DNA of 64,000 nt. Origin: Candidatus Tenderia electrophaga. GTDB lineage: Bacteria > Pseudomonadota > Gammaproteobacteria > Tenderiales > Tenderiaceae. A program made the position numbers and the translations under genes. The stretch covers positions 1,736,001 to 1,800,000 of the forward strand of contig CP013099.1 in NCBI GenBank assembly GCA_001447805.1, in the 5' to 3' direction. The notes under the pieces were generated by a model. The model ran no database searches, had not been told where the DNA came from, and saw only the letters and a program-made list of their open reading frames with translations. Below, piece after piece: positions 24,324-45,982 of this stretch (within the stretch, counting starts at the first letter, position 1; each line of letters opens with the position of its first letter).

Positions 24324-25667
24324 ATGAGCCGGGCCAGGCCAGACATGCTTACCCCCGAGACATTGCAGCATGCAATGCCACCCTTGGCGCGCGACAAAGT
24401 TGTCTGGGTCGCCTACAGCGGCGGCTGCGACTCCCATGTCCTGCTGCATCTCCTGAGTCAGCTGCGCAAATCAGTGCCGTTCGAACTCAAAGCCGTCTAT
24501 GTCGATCATGGTCTCAGTCCCAATGCCGCCCAATGGGGCGAGCACTGTCGCGTGGTGTGCGCAGAACTCGCAGTTGAAATTCTCACGCTCAATGTGGATG
24601 CCACCCCCCAAGACGGCGCAAGCCCCGAAGCCGCCGCGCGCCAGGCCCGCTATGCCGCCATCAAGACGCTGCTCAAATCCGGCGACACTCTCTGCACCGC
24701 CCATCACCAGGAGGACCAGGCCGAGACCCTGTTATTGCAACTGCTGCGCGGCGCCGGCCCCAAGGGCCTGGCCGGTATGCCGCCGAGTTCGCCACTGGGC
24801 CTCGCTACGCAAGTGCGACCATTGTTGGGTTTCAGCCAGACACAACTGCGCGACTACGCCGAACAATACGGCTTGCAGTGGATCGAAGACGAAAGCAACA
24901 GCGACACCGGCTTTAACCGCAACTACCTGCGCCACGAAATCCTGCCCCGTTTGCGTGAGCGCTGGCCCGCCAGCGACGCCACCATCGCCCGCAGCGCCGC
25001 TCACTGCGCCGAAGCCGCGCGGTTGATGGAGGTGTTGGCGGAGCAGGATTTCCAATCGGTCAAGTCTGTAAGCTCGACCGAACTGGAAATCGAAGCGCTG
25101 CTTCGACTCGAGAATGCACGGCAGAAAAACCTGCTGCGCTACTGGATTCATCAGGCAGGTTTGCCCCTGCCATCCGAGATTAAGCTGCAACACATTCTCA
25201 GCGACGTGCTGACAGCGGCGGAGGACAAGATGCCGCTGGTGGCCTGGCCCGGTGCCGAAGTGCGCCGTTATGACGGCCGGCTGTATGTGATGGCGCCGTT
25301 GCCGGAATTCGACACGACGCAGGTGATTGAGTGGGCCGATCTCAGTCGCCCGCTTGAATTACCTGACGGGTCAAGGTTGTGCTGCGAATCAAGCGATCAA
25401 CGTCCGGCGCTGGACCTCAAGCGGCTGCGGCAGGGGAGGGTGACCGTTCAGTTTCGTCAGGGCGGGGAGAGATGCCGTCTTGTCGGCAGTCAGTATCACA
25501 AAAGCCTGAAGCAGGTCTTTCAGGAACGAGCTGTGCCGCCGTGGCGGCGATCCAGAATTCCGTTGCTTTACGTTGACGATATGCTGGTGGCGGTGGTTGG
25601 CGTATGCGTAACGGATGTGCTTTTTACCACAGAATTCGCCCACGGGTCGGTTGTTCGGCTATCTTGA
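24324..25667 (+). CDS. tilS: tRNA(Ile)-lysidine synthetase
   Basis: ATP-dependent modification of C34 in the minor tRNA-Ile(CAU) to lysidine. N-terminal PP-loop SGGCDSHVLLHLLSQL, then VYVDHGLSPNAAQWGEHC, HHQEDQAETLLLQLLRGAG and IEDESNSDTGFNRNYLRHEILP. The C-terminal TilS domain includes VQFRQGGERCRLVG and FQERAVPPWRRSRIPLLYVD. 447 residues. The start at 24324 is favoured because the GGAGG of the adjacent repeat precedes it; ATG 24345 is the alternative. Confidence 0.95.
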   Translation: MSRARPDMLTPETLQHAMPPLARDKVVWVAYSGGCDSHVLLHLLSQLRKSVPFELKAVYVDHGLSPNAAQWGEHCRVVCAELAVEILTLNVDATPQDGASPEAAARQARYAAIKTLLKSGDTLCTAHHQEDQAETLLLQLLRGAGPKGLAGMPPSSPLGLATQVRPLLGFSQTQLRDYAEQYGLQWIEDESNSDTGFNRNYLRHEILPRLRERWPASDATIARSAAHCAEAARLMEVLAEQDFQSVKSVSSTELEIEALLRLENARQKNLLRYWIHQAGLPLPSEIKLQHILSDVLTAAEDKMPLVAWPGAEVRRYDGRLYVMAPLPEFDTTQVIEWADLSRPLELPDGSRLCCESSDQRPALDLKRLRQGRVTVQFRQGGERCRLVGSQYHKSLKQVFQERAVPPWRRSRIPLLYVDDMLVAVVGVCVTDVLFTTEFAHGSVVRLS

Positions 25668-25854
25668 GTGATTTTGTGGCGCTAAGCCGGTAATATCCTG
25701 GGCGTTTTTAATGGTTTGTGGTAGATTAGTAGCCGCTTAAGAACAATAAACATGCTGGTCGCTGTTGTTTATCGGGGGTCGGGAAGGGGTAGGCCTTTCG
25801 ACTATTCTCCTGAATCCTTACAGGCGGCCAGACGAGTAGGGGGTCGCTGTAGTC

Positions 25855-28800
25855 ATGTCTTTTTCTGCGCGTATTTGTGCTTCTTTTTTTTCGTTCCTTA
25901 TTATTCTCTCCTTGTTTGCTTCCGAGGCATTGGCCGAAACCAGCGGTGGAATTTCGGGGACTGTAACGGCTGCCGATAGCGGTGAAGCCTTAAGCGATAG
26001 GTCGGTATACCTCTATCGCTTCGATGGTGGTTTCGTGTCCTGGGCAAATACGGACCCTAATGGCAATTTTCAATTTAACGATCTCGCTGCCGGTCCCTAT
26101 TACCTGAGGGTGTGGGGAGAGGACTATATTGATGAGGTGTATTCCGGGGTGGAGTGCGTAGACCAGTGTGATGTCACAGCCGGGACGGCTGTCATGGTAA
26201 CTGCAGGAGAGGTTTCTACCGGAATTGATTTTGTCTTGCGGCGTGGAGGGGTTATAAGCGGCACCGTGACCATGGCCGATACGGGAAACGCGCTTAGCGA
26301 TCGATTCGTAACTGTCTATGACGCGCATGGAAATCAAGTTTGGTCTTTTGCAAACACTGACATTGACGGTGAATTCCAGCTCGTCGGGCTTCCCAGTGGT
26401 AGCTACTATGTGCAGGTCCATGGTCGGGACTATATTGATCAAGTGTACTCCGGGGTTGAGTGCGCAAAATATTGGTGTGATGTCACCGAGGGGAAGGCAG
26501 TTGCGGTGATCGCCGGGGAATCCGTTGCCGGCATCGATTTTACCCTTGATCGAGGGGGCTCCATCAGCGGCGTGGTAAAGGCGCTGGACACCGGCCTGCC
26601 CCTCGGCGGCCACTCTATCAAGATTTACGCCGAAGGCGAGGAGTCGGTCGTCGCGCACGAGTTTTCGGCACAGGATGACGGTAGTTATGCTGTCATGGGG
26701 CTGCCGGCAGGCGATTATTTCGTGGTCGCAGAGGGGGCCGGTGACTATATCGGGCAGTACTTCGGCGGCCCTCTCTGCGTAGGCTGGTGCTCCAGACCAT
26801 CCGGCACCCTTGTCACCATTGTAAAAGGACAAGACAGTGCCGGCATCGATCTTCTGTTGACCAAGGGCGGTATGATCAGGGGGGTGGTCAGTTCTGCTGA
26901 AGGCGGGGCACCTGTCGTCAACGCAAGGGTCTCGGTGGGTGATGTCGCCGGGGGCTCGGTGTGGACTAACTCGCAGGGTGAGTATCAAATTGGCGGCCTG
27001 GTGACGGGTGACTACTATGTACAAGTCTCCACAAATGGGCACGGCGGCATGGCATACGGCGATGTGCCCTGCCCGAGCGTTGACTGTGATTTGTCCCAGG
27101 CCAGCACCGTTGAGGTGGTGCAGGGACAGATCGTTGACGGTATCAATATCACTATGGCGCCCACCGGCAGCATTGCCGGCACGCTGCGCGATCAAGCTAC
27201 CGGCCTGGGCTTGGGCTATCAACTTGTCGAAGCCTATTCCTGGGATGGACGGCCTGCAGGCGACGCATGGACCAACGAGCGCGGGGCTTATCATATAGAC
27301 GGGCTGTTGCCGGGCGCCTATTTTGTCGCCGGCCCGGTCAATAGTGATTATATCCGTACGATTCATGGCGGACCGGAGTGTTTAGGGCCGTGGCGCTGTA
27401 TGCTGGTTCTAGCCACTGCCGTGGAGGTCCTCCCAGACCAGGACACTACCGGAATAGATCTGGTGTCGCGCAAAGGTGGCGAAATATCGGGTGTGGTGAC
27501 AGATGCAGATTCCGGAACGCCCTTGTCCAATGTATATATCGAAGCGTATGGGGGAGCATACTCGGGAAATGCATATACGGATGGCCAAGGTGGATATCGC
27601 ATCAGCGGACTGCCACCCGGCACCTACACAATCCTTGCCCATGACGGGCGAACGCATAGCCGACAGGCCTATGGTGACTATCCCTGCGACGGCTGCAATA
27701 TCGAACTCCTGGACGACACCGGCATTAGCGTTACTACAGGCCAGAGCATTTCCGGAATCGATTTCGCATTAAATGCGAAACAGGTGCCGGATACCGGAAT
27801 CAGCGGCAGGGTGATTGCGGGCGACACCGGGCGGCCGCTAAAAGGTATACACATAGGGATCAGGGACCCGGACGGCATGGGTGTCGCTAGTGCGGTGACG
27901 GATGGAGAGGGCCGTTATCGAGCCGCGCTGCCTCCCGGCGACTACTATGTTGAGGTTCATCCTAAAGAGTACGTTGCAGAACACTATGATGGGGCACCAT
28001 GTCCGAACCATTTTTGCGATACGGTCGACGGCACGCTGGTTACCGTGGCCGCAGGTCAGCTCGTCACGAACATTGATTTCAGCTTGACCAAGGGAGGAAT
28101 GATCTCCGGGACGGTGACTGCTATCGATGGCAAGTATCTCGGCAAATCTGTATACGTAAAGGTGGTTGATCTCGATGGCTGGTACGTTGCGAGTAGCTCG
28201 ATCGATGCCATGGGTAGTTATCGTATCGTCGGCTTGCCGGCGGGGAACTATTTTGTGAGCGCCATATATTTTAGCAGTGCTCCCGTGCCACCTCTATATA
28301 CGGGCAAGGTATACAAAGGCGAGGATTGTGTCCCGGGGTGTTTCAATGTGGTCAAGGGTACCCCCGTGCGCGTTGCCGAGGGCGCGTCAGTAGCGGGTAT
28401 CGACTTCACCCTCCATCGCGCCGGCGCGATCAGCGGTACCGTCCGTGCCGCGGACACGGGCGCAACCGTCGCCCACGCGCGGGTTGAGGTCTATGACGGC
28501 GATTCCGAGTTGCTGCTTTCCGGCGTAGCGAATGCCCAGGGTGAATATCGCCTGGGGGGACTGCCCACCGGCCGGTATTATGTGAAGGTTGTACCCGTGG
28601 TTAAACGGCAGAATGGCCATGTATATTCCGCGCCGTTACCAGAAGCGGTTGATTATATGGCGACGCTGTTTGGTGATCTCCCCTGCGTCAATCTGTGTGA
28701 TGTGACGCGCGGGGTCGCTGTGAGTGTCACCATGGGCGAGACCACGTCGAATGTGGATGTCGCGCTGAGTCGGGGAGATGGTATAGCCGGTAAAGTGATC

Positions 28801-29223
28801 ACTGGGGAGACGGGGGTCGGGGTGCCCTATGTTCTTCTTTCGGTCTTCGATTCGGCCGGCACCTGGGTGGGATTTCAGGCCTGGACCGATGCCAATGGTG
28901 ATTACCGGGTGCGCGGATTGTCGCCGGGTCGCTACTACCTTCTGGCCCTTGGGGCAGATAAGGAGGATAACCAACTTTTCGATAGGCTGCCCTGTTCCTC
29001 CGAGGAATGTGTGATTACCGATGGCACGGCCGTTGAGGTTGTCCGGGGCCGTGATACTACAGGTATTGATTTCGTGTTAGGCGGTGTGGTTGAGGAACAG
29101 CCGATTGACGCTGTGCCGGCTGACAGCGGTGGCGGCCTAATCGGTTGGCAGCTTCTGGTGTTGATGCTGTGTTGGATGTTGTATGCCCGTGCAGCATGCT
29201 TGCGGCGCGACCGCGCATGGTAG
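25855..29223 (+). CDS. Large secreted protein of ten Cys-pair carboxypeptidase-regulatory-like repeats, GlyGly-CTERM-like tail
   Basis: 1122 residues. A signal peptide (cleavage near ...ASEALA-ETSGG, residue 28) is followed by ten tandem repeats of about 105-110 residues resembling carboxypeptidase regulatory-like/Cna-B beta-sandwich domains. A repeat runs ISGTV...D(S/T)G..L, a Gly-Tyr strand, G.YYV.V, a cysteine pair (for example GVECVDQCDVT, GAPCPNHFCDTV, RLPCSSEECVIT), then GT.V.V..G....GIDF.L..GG. Every repeat keeps a C-x(2-5)-C pair, suggesting one disulphide each. The C-terminus (DSGGGLIGWQLLVLMLCWML, then RACLRR-type basic residues) resembles a GlyGly-CTERM signal processed by rhombosortase in type II secretion. 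No partner gene is nearby. Substrate and function unknown; an extracellular stalk or adhesin is the likely role. Confidence 0.75.
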   Translation: MSFSARICASFFSFLIILSLFASEALAETSGGISGTVTAADSGEALSDRSVYLYRFDGGFVSWANTDPNGNFQFNDLAAGPYYLRVWGEDYIDEVYSGVECVDQCDVTAGTAVMVTAGEVSTGIDFVLRRGGVISGTVTMADTGNALSDRFVTVYDAHGNQVWSFANTDIDGEFQLVGLPSGSYYVQVHGRDYIDQVYSGVECAKYWCDVTEGKAVAVIAGESVAGIDFTLDRGGSISGVVKALDTGLPLGGHSIKIYAEGEESVVAHEFSAQDDGSYAVMGLPAGDYFVVAEGAGDYIGQYFGGPLCVGWCSRPSGTLVTIVKGQDSAGIDLLLTKGGMIRGVVSSAEGGAPVVNARVSVGDVAGGSVWTNSQGEYQIGGLVTGDYYVQVSTNGHGGMAYGDVPCPSVDCDLSQASTVEVVQGQIVDGINITMAPTGSIAGTLRDQATGLGLGYQLVEAYSWDGRPAGDAWTNERGAYHIDGLLPGAYFVAGPVNSDYIRTIHGGPECLGPWRCMLVLATAVEVLPDQDTTGIDLVSRKGGEISGVVTDADSGTPLSNVYIEAYGGAYSGNAYTDGQGGYRISGLPPGTYTILAHDGRTHSRQAYGDYPCDGCNIELLDDTGISVTTGQSISGIDFALNAKQVPDTGISGRVIAGDTGRPLKGIHIGIRDPDGMGVASAVTDGEGRYRAALPPGDYYVEVHPKEYVAEHYDGAPCPNHFCDTVDGTLVTVAAGQLVTNIDFSLTKGGMISGTVTAIDGKYLGKSVYVKVVDLDGWYVASSSIDAMGSYRIVGLPAGNYFVSAIYFSSAPVPPLYTGKVYKGEDCVPGCFNVVKGTPVRVAEGASVAGIDFTLHRAGAISGTVRAADTGATVAHARVEVYDGDSELLLSGVANAQGEYRLGGLPTGRYYVKVVPVVKRQNGHVYSAPLPEAVDYMATLFGDLPCVNLCDVTRGVAVSVTMGETTSNVDVALSRGDGIAGKVITGETGVGVPYVLLSVFDSAGTWVGFQAWTDANGDYRVRGLSPGRYYLLALGADKEDNQLFDRLPCSSEECVITDGTAVEVVRGRDTTGIDFVLGGVVEEQPIDAVPADSGGGLIGWQLLVLMLCWMLYARAACLRRDRAW

Positions 29224-29237
29224 CGCTCCGATAACAG

Positions 29238-29325
29238 CGCCTTCCCGCCATCTCCGGATGACTGTTCCAGGGTGCCGGCGCAGAGGTTGACCGCCACGTT
29301 GATTTTATGCAGCTTCTCTTTTAGT
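29238..29325 (-). pseudogene. Possible remnant of an EAL-domain gene
   Basis: Read on the minus strand, this stretch gives KEKLHKINVAVNLCAGTLEQ, closely resembling the conserved EAL-domain strand 'VAVNLSA..L' of c-di-GMP phosphodiesterases. No EAL, no upstream domain and no continuation are present; after about 25 codons the similarity is lost. A short decayed fragment is the simplest reading, but chance similarity cannot be excluded. Confidence 0.35.
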
Positions 29326-29419
29326 TAGTCTGAAACTCTCAGTATTAGTGTTTTTGCATGTGTATATGTTCGCAGGGGCGGGGCTGGCTGTTTAACGCCT
29401 GCGCTGATTCATTCAGGTT

Positions 29420-29437
29420 GTCCCCCAAACGGGGGAC
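29420..29437. repeat. Short perfect inverted repeat
   Basis: GTCCCCC-AAAC-GGGGGAC forms a 7-bp stem with a 4-nt loop. There is no T-run on either strand close enough for a classical terminator. It may be a minimal relative of the C5/G5 repeats found elsewhere in the window. Confidence 0.5.
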
Positions 29438-29566
29438 GGGAGTTGGCCAGCCGAGCCAAGCAGGGCCGAGCCAATCGACCGAGTGACAGTCATCAGGAGG
29501 GGACAAGCGCCTGCGGGATGCATTGAGAACCCCCCCCGTTTCTGGTAGTCTGCACTCCCGTCTTGA

Positions 29567-31228
<1,662 letters not shown>

Positions 31229-44821: not shown

Positions 44822-45982
44822 GTGCTTATCAAACAAACAGAGAAAACGCTGCTTGAGCAGATGCAGATTGGTGATTTTGAGATTGAACAGCGCAAAACTC
44901 TTTTTTCTTTAACGGACGCCAACATTGCAGCGCTCAAGTCAGCAAAACCAATAATCGACGCTAATATTGACGATTTAGTGTCTAAATTTTATGAGCTGCA
45001 AACGAGCATTCCAGAAATTTCATTGCTGATTGGAGATGCGGACACCTTAAACCGTTTGCGTCATGCTCAACGAAAGTACGTAGTTGATCTGTTTTATGGT
45101 TTATATGATCTTGAATATGTAAACAATCGCCTTCGGATCGGGCTGGTACACAAGCGAATCGGTGTTGAGCCGAAACTCTATCTTTCAGCGATGTATGCAC
45201 TCAAGAGATTGCTGTATGACTTGCTGACTCAAGAGATACAAGACCTAGGGCAACGGGAAGAAGTGCTTGCGGCACTTGAAAAGCTATTATTGTTTGACAT
45301 AAGTCTTGTGTTTGATACTTACATCAGGAGTCTGCTTTCTGAAATTGAGATTTCGAAAGAGAAATCCGATCAATATGCACAAGATCTAGAATACAAGATA
45401 AAAGAACGCACCCGCCAACTTGAGCATTTGTCTCGTACAGACCCATTGACAGGCTTGTTAAATATGCGACACCTGGTGGATATTCTCACCGGGACTTTGC
45501 GAGCGGCTCAGCGACGCGCTGAGCCTGTGAGCCTTGTGTATATCGATATTGATGATTTTAAAGCGCTCAACGATACGCGCGGTCATCAATATGGCGACGA
45601 AGTGCTCAGGATTTTAGGCGCGTCCATCGCAAAGGTTTCTCGCAAAGAAGATAGTTGTTTTCGCTATGGTGGCGATGAGTTTTGTATTATTTTGCCGAAT
45701 TGCACGGAAGACGCGGCGTTGGAATTATATAAACTGCGTCTCAGTGAGGAAGTGTTGGATAAATCGAAGGAAATCGTATTAAGTATCGGTATTGTTCAGA
45801 CAGGTCCGTTGGAGTATTTGGAGCCGGAAGCGTTAATCAGGAAAGCCGACAGACGAATGTACAAGGCAAAGCAGGCAAAAAAATCCAGGTTAAAAAATAC
45901 GGATATGAACACCTTGCGTTATGACCCTTCCGGCTCTTCATCAAAGGAATATAATGACAACAAGGTGCGGGATAAAAAATAA
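44822..45982 (+). CDS. Globin-coupled sensor diguanylate cyclase (DosC-like)
   Basis: 386 residues. The N-terminal heme-globin sensor domain (about 15-170) has the proximal histidine at residue 110 in RIGLVHKRIGVEPKLYLSAM. A linker coiled coil follows, then a GGDEF domain with RTDPLTGLLNMRHL, YIDIDDFKALNDTRGHQYGD and intact active-site RYGGDEFCIILPN. It should make c-di-GMP in response to O2 or another heme ligand. The start is GTG 44822; ATG 44861 is an alternative. The gene is AT-rich and uses codons unlike its neighbours, a sign of transfer. The tail is charged and unconserved. Confidence 0.9.
   Translation: MLIKQTEKTLLEQMQIGDFEIEQRKTLFSLTDANIAALKSAKPIIDANIDDLVSKFYELQTSIPEISLLIGDADTLNRLRHAQRKYVVDLFYGLYDLEYVNNRLRIGLVHKRIGVEPKLYLSAMYALKRLLYDLLTQEIQDLGQREEVLAALEKLLLFDISLVFDTYIRSLLSEIEISKEKSDQYAQDLEYKIKERTRQLEHLSRTDPLTGLLNMRHLVDILTGTLRAAQRRAEPVSLVYIDIDDFKALNDTRGHQYGDEVLRILGASIAKVSRKEDSCFRYGGDEFCIILPNCTEDAALELYKLRLSEEVLDKSKEIVLSIGIVQTGPLEYLEPEALIRKADRRMYKAKQAKKSRLKNTDMNTLRYDPSGSSSKEYNDNKVRDKK

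Follow-up and report, generated by a model that had tools for sequence, protein, structure and literature searches.

The 64,000-nucleotide window analyzed here (positions 1,736,001 to 1,800,000 of contig CP013099.1 from Candidatus Tenderia electrophaga) contains an open reading frame (ORF) at 25855-29223 on the forward strand, which encodes a repeat protein of 1122 amino acids counted from the ATG. From its sequence, the protein consists of a signal-peptide-like start, ten CarboxypepD_reg repeats, a short acidic linker and a tripartite tail, and each of the ten repeats holds one pair of closely spaced cysteines. The individual parts are of known kinds and their combination is unusual. The features of the gene and of the segment in which it lies are the following.

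25855..25935 (+), putative signal peptide, residues 1-27, with a basic N-region, a hydrophobic core and an AxA motif, ending in A-L-A; assigned by eye
25945..29088 (+), array of ten CarboxypepD_reg / transthyretin-like repeats, residues 31-1078; from PF13620, the repeat starts and a two-repeat model
26155..26169 (+), Cys pair 1, residues 101-105, C-x3-C; the loop recurs in every repeat
26461..26478 (+), Cys pair 2, residues 203-208, C-x4-C
26776..26790 (+), Cys pair 3, residues 308-312, C-x3-C
27070..27087 (+), Cys pair 4, residues 406-411, C-x4-C
27379..27399 (+), Cys pair 5, residues 509-515, C-x5-C
27685..27696 (+), Cys pair 6, residues 611-614, C-x2-C
28000..28017 (+), Cys pair 7, residues 716-721, C-x4-C
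28327..28341 (+), Cys pair 8, residues 825-829, C-x3-C
28684..28698 (+), Cys pair 9, residues 944-948, C-x3-C
28993..29010 (+), Cys pair 10, residues 1047-1052, C-x4-C
29089..29124 (+), short acidic linker, residues 1079-1090; from sequence
29125..29220 (+), GlyGly-CTERM-like tail with SGGG (1091-1094), a hydrophobic helix and a basic end
25668..29521 (+), segment absent from the tilS-pyrG junction of relatives, with approximate borders; homology resumes near 29521

Within the array, all 20 cysteines belong to C-x(2-5)-C pairs, ten in total and with exactly two Cys in each repeat, the paired residues being separated by 3, 4, 3, 4, 5, 2, 4, 3, 3, and 4 residues in repeats 1-10, as had been claimed in an earlier reading of the DNA made without database searches (the sequence-only reading). 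The only cysteines outside the array are residue 8 in the signal peptide and residues 1106 and 1115 in the tail. When 20 Cys were scattered at random over the 1048-residue array in 200,000 trials, ten adjacent pairs each no more than 6 apart were never obtained (0/200,000), and exactly two Cys in each repeat arose in 7 trials. The pairing is not due to chance, because no random placement reproduces the ten pairs, and with a mean identity of only 34% among the ten repeats it is also no by-product of recent duplication.

The repeat boundaries were set by cuts at the G-x-I-x-G motif with which every module begins, giving lengths of 101, 103, 104, 99, 104, 105, 101, 109, and 118 residues for repeats 1-9 and about 104 for repeat 10. 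The Pfam family PF13620 (CarboxypepD_reg) matches the protein with 294.5 bits against a gathering cut-off of 32.3, in ten stretches, which places the repeats in this family and, together with the cuts, agrees with the count and the family named in the sequence-only reading; its repeat length of about 108 residues is slightly high compared with the observed 99-118. Pfam SdrD_B and SpaA also match. No catalytic domain over cut-off was found in a Pfam scan of the 1122-residue protein, the strong scores being confined to repeat-type β-sandwich families. A model of two repeats (residues 31-234), built with an alignment of five window segments, has a predicted local distance difference test score (pLDDT) of 92.6 and a predicted template modeling score (pTM) of 0.83. 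Among solved structures it is closest to the transthyretin-like domain of human carboxypeptidase D (5aq0; Z 12.9, root mean square deviation 1.4, 81 residues, 28% identity), and SdrD B domains, an anthrax TIE protein and Gram-positive pilins hold the top ranks in Foldseek. On this model the repeats almost certainly fold as tandem transthyretin-like β-sandwiches. Compared with the metallocarboxypeptidase D domains (5aq0 and 1qmu), to which 80-81 residues align at 1.4-1.5 Å, the repeats are about 20 residues longer (99-118 against 81 aligned residues and the 82 positions of the Pfam model), and the surplus includes the Cys loop, the pair being located between the long strand 50-57 and strand 83-85 in the two-repeat model; a peptidase domain is lacking in the repeat protein. 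The SdrD B, CnaB and SpaA-type repeats of Gram-positive adhesins and pilins share the same broad tandem β-sandwich fold according to Pfam and Foldseek, but those proteins have an LPXTG tail, whereas the protein described here has a Gly-rich tail, a Cys pair in each repeat and no conserved Lys.

In a sample of 398 genomes from the phylum, a profile of the ten repeats matched 3 at E <= 1e-8, namely the source genome and two in which the match is partial and does not extend to the Cys loop. At E <= 1e-10 it matched 3 of 369 genomes of the class, namely the source genome, G483 with twelve full repeats, and G691 with a single repeat. The two samples partly overlap, and only each genome's best first-look candidates are scored, so these counts are lower bounds. 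On reading of the G691 protein, the loop is present and the Cys pair is absent. The G483 homologue (locus L040, 8522-14239, +; 1905 amino acids) belongs to another gammaproteobacterial family, and among six genomes of its order the match occurs in G483 only. Eleven of its twelve repeats carry two Cys and the remaining one is free of them; repeat 9 has lost the usual second Cys and has a new one six residues before the first. It resembles the window protein in having the same type of repeat with Cys pairs, a Gly-rich tripartite tail and a rhombosortase in its genome, and differs in being extended towards the C-terminus, where PKD-like matches stay below cut-off and a choice_anch_U domain (49.1 bits against a cut-off of 32) precedes the tail KSGGGAIAPHELLLLLLMICLVCSRQRTGLRKY. 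A further profile scan of genome contigs gave two loci, both without a Cys-pair array on reading, and no relative was found in viral contigs scanned with the window protein. Plasmid searches with tblastn gave 21 records, all below 60% identity, and the frame of the one record read (H20) contains no Cys; phages gave two Listeria records at 22%. Apart from the window protein, an SdrD_B protein (C1:3013565) is the only profile match in the source genome at E <= 1e-8. Locus L044 of the same genome (2558-6427, +) encodes an SdrD_B repeat protein (613 bits) with C-terminal repeats like DKDGSYSSYDKDGYDKDG, the end GGGGW and no hydrophobic anchor. Similar Cys-bearing CarboxypepD_reg repeats are probably present in annotated genomes of other phyla, which lowers any claim to novelty; nothing was found in the open-licence literature that treats GlyGly-CTERM and CarboxypepD together.

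The C-terminal tail DSGGGLIGWQLLVLMLCWMLYARAACLRRDRAW is comprised of SGGG, a hydrophobic segment and basic residues, as the sequence-only reading had described. It thereby has the tripartite end of GlyGly-CTERM proteins such as VesB, with which the window protein shares a signal-peptide-like start, a Gly-rich motif without Cys, a hydrophobic segment and a basic end, and whose rhombosortase and type II secretin are likewise present in its genome; VesB is a protease, whereas the window protein has no enzyme domain. A tail rule ([SGDNAT]GG[GSA], a hydrophobic stretch and a basic end), written with the window tail already known, is passed by one of 519 window ORF C-termini, the window protein itself, and by only 6 of the 12 lineage tails collected from the source genome and its relatives. 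The rhombosortase (TIGR03902, 159.6 bits, cut-off 84; C1:1732720-1733175) is the sole match over cut-off in the genome and is located about 2.8 kb before the window start (1736001). It carries WRLLS, SGVLH and AHLYGAIGG, which resemble the rhombosortase motifs described in PMC3237569. The type II secretin scores 596.8 bits against a cut-off of 351, so that both components that the sequence-only reading had called for in the genome are present. Of 13 genomes tested, 12 have a rhombosortase over cut-off, the source genome and G483 among them. A match to type IX secretion system sorting (TIGR04183, 45.6 bits) was rejected, its best stretch being residues 147-190 inside repeat 2 and not C-terminal.

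The source genome also encodes a 670-residue exported-looking protein (locus L043, 7059-9071, -) with a tail of DGGG, a hydrophobic segment and basic residues, whose end is DGGGALNWIMVLGLVLGHWLLRRPQ plus a short extension and which scores 12.6 bits with TIGR03501, below cut-off. It is matched in 8 of the 10 family relatives (G001, G002, G003, G005, G006, G007, G009, and G010, not G004 or G008) and in G483 and G691. In seven of the eight relatives the orthologue tails are by eye glycine-rich, hydrophobic and then basic, and in G003 the frame is broken before the tail. The orthologues at L058 and L060 have in-frame stops, TGA in G003 and TAA in G001, which could be real decay or draft-assembly error. 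The C-terminal region of the L043 protein matches part of the G483 Cys-repeat protein, and choice_anch_U reaches 19.1 bits in it against the cut-off of 32. This protein is a likelier core rhombosortase substrate of the lineage than the window protein; judged from these comparisons, the lineage looks to have a working rhombosortase with a conserved likely substrate, to which the Cys-repeat protein looks like an addition.

The repeat gene sits between tilS and pyrG, which are 3.9 kb apart here. The window protein has no match in six same-genus and four same-family genomes (completeness 77-100%). In G003, G002, and G004 the tilS and pyrG matches are 141-167 bp apart, leaving no room for the repeat gene, and in G010 the two genes are also neighbours, although further apart, by a few hundred bases; G001, G005, G006, G008, G009, and G483 are uninformative, as tilS is not in the stretch upstream of pyrG and some of these stretches are short. 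The G+C content at third codon positions is 0.60 in the repeat gene against 0.71-0.87 in six neighbours. Between the repeat gene and the conserved upstream region of pyrG, the stretch 29224-29521 has no counterpart in the relatives, and a 14-nt inverted repeat lies at 29252 and 29486; the stretch with this repeat may be a trace of insertion. A 458-residue open frame at 25990-27366 (-), antisense to the first repeats, is probably a by-product of codon bias. The opposite-strand ORF at 28935-29297 matches no Pfam family at E <= 1e-5, Rfam gives no match within 25400-29700, and the signals from promoter and terminator scans are no higher than shuffle level. Elsewhere in the window, 44822-45982 (+) encodes a protoglobin-GGDEF protein, likely an oxygen-sensing diguanylate cyclase.

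The residue patterns make it very probable that the two cysteines of each repeat form a disulfide, and with 2-5 residues between them such a bond is sterically possible. Across the 22 repeats of the window protein and the G483 homologue the number of Cys is 2 or 0 and never 1, and in G483 the Cys are lost or moved as a pair, as a disulfide predicts; this parity fits the disulfide staple put forward in the sequence-only reading, whose bonding we infer. SdrD B and CnaB modules have a conserved Lys that forms an intramolecular isopeptide bond. In the alignment, no column contains Lys in more than 7 of the 22 rows, so this signature is missing, nor does any column contain His in more than 6, and the lack of a conserved Lys or His column argues against an isopeptide bond as well as a richer metal site. 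The occurrence of two close Cys in the loop of every repeat, with C-x2-C in repeat 6, would also suit metal-binding or redox-active pairs, which would turn the array into a string of sites that handle metal or electrons, but this is improbable given that the spacing varies (2-5 here, 2-8 in G483), that only two conserved ligands per repeat remain without a shared His, and that none of the window protein's ten pairs has the C-x-x-C-H haem motif. Bonds joining neighbouring repeats are more improbable still: both Cys are in a loop that could face a neighbour, and the two-repeat model places the repeats with a pTM of 0.83, but in G483 a repeat devoid of Cys is flanked by repeats that retain their pairs, which would leave partners unpaired.

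The processing of the tail is less certain than the disulfide. Several observations weigh against it: TIGR03501 (cut-off 15.5 bits at the C-terminus) does not match the window protein, the tail scanned alone matches no family, and the three loose genome-wide TIGR03501 matches (E 1.25 to 3.58, all below cut-off) do not include it. A profile of the 12 lineage tails gives the window tail 2.3 bits. Scores at least as high are seen in 7 of 174 control C-termini and, among shuffled sequences, in 279 of the 5000 full and 1483 of the 5000 segment shuffles; the 12 tails themselves score 2.4 to 32.1 in leave-one-out tests. Rhombosortase occurs also in relatives without the repeat gene, so that its presence is no proof. 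The full-length model, made without an alignment, has a pLDDT of 37.4 and is usable only for the helices over the signal peptide (4-27) and the tail (1094-1115). The authors of TIGR03501 state that the model misses true members (PMC3237569). As both profiles fail and the architecture fits, the tail is called GlyGly-CTERM-like and not a member. The rhombosortase-processed stalk of the sequence-only reading thus keeps its enzyme, secretin and repeat fold and lacks recognition of its tail by TIGR03501. That same failure with both profiles would be expected of an ordinary C-terminal membrane anchor, with the protein in the inner membrane, the array periplasmic and rhombosortase uninvolved. This is unlikely, as the window protein alone among the 519 ORF C-termini combines the motif, the hydrophobic stretch and the basic end, the genome holds rhombosortase and secretin, and the G483 Cys-repeat protein ends alike by eye, though it fails the strict tail rule. 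Rhombosortase processing with surface retention is, on the sequence evidence, reasonably likely. As for the origin of the gene, loss in the relatives is possible, and gain by horizontal insertion is the simplest reading. Taken as a whole, a horizontally gained, disulfide-stapled surface stalk that is exported by Sec and then probably cut by rhombosortase has a probability of roughly 0.6 in our estimate, with anchoring and bonding inferred.

For VesB of Vibrio cholerae, PMC6219818 and PMC13393428 describe removal of the tail by rhombosortase, a modification of the new C-terminal Gly consistent with glycerophosphoethanolamine, and subsequent delivery to the surface by the type II system; a separate second secretion signal, an Ig (immunoglobulin) fold, is needed according to PMC13393428. 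By analogy, Sec would export the chain, and the tail helix would keep it in the inner membrane. The repeats would fold in the periplasm, where the two Cys of each, in the loop after the Tyr-containing strand, would oxidize to one loop-closing disulfide, which may take the stabilizing role played by isopeptide bonds in Gram-positive pilin and SdrD B modules. Rhombosortase would then cut near SGGG and the new C-terminus would be lipid-linked as proposed for VesB. The type II system would carry the protein to the surface, possibly with the β-sandwich repeats supplying the second secretion signal, where the array would serve as a spacer or adhesive stalk that is stiff and resists proteases. Such a role is the simplest one for a chain of ten modules that has no enzyme, and we give it slightly less than an even chance. 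As there is no catalytic or recognized binding domain, the likeliest function is adhesion, contact between cells or attachment to a matrix by way of the variable loops of the repeats, which is the weakest step of this scheme.

In a wider and rather doubtful interpretation, the Cys-loop transthyretin-like repeat may be a distinct family with one disulfide staple per module in place of the Gram-positive isopeptide bond, forming a mobile, mechanically hardened stalk for rhombosortase-bearing Gram-negatives that can be fused to different anchors. If the reading as a surface stalk is right, a long non-enzymatic repeat protein would join the likely rhombosortase substrates, and tails under the TIGR03501 cut-off could be real candidates. 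The repeat would also provide a simple module for comparing the mechanical effect of a loop disulfide with that of an isopeptide bond, and the gene would be an example of a stalk arriving through insertion into a housekeeping locus.

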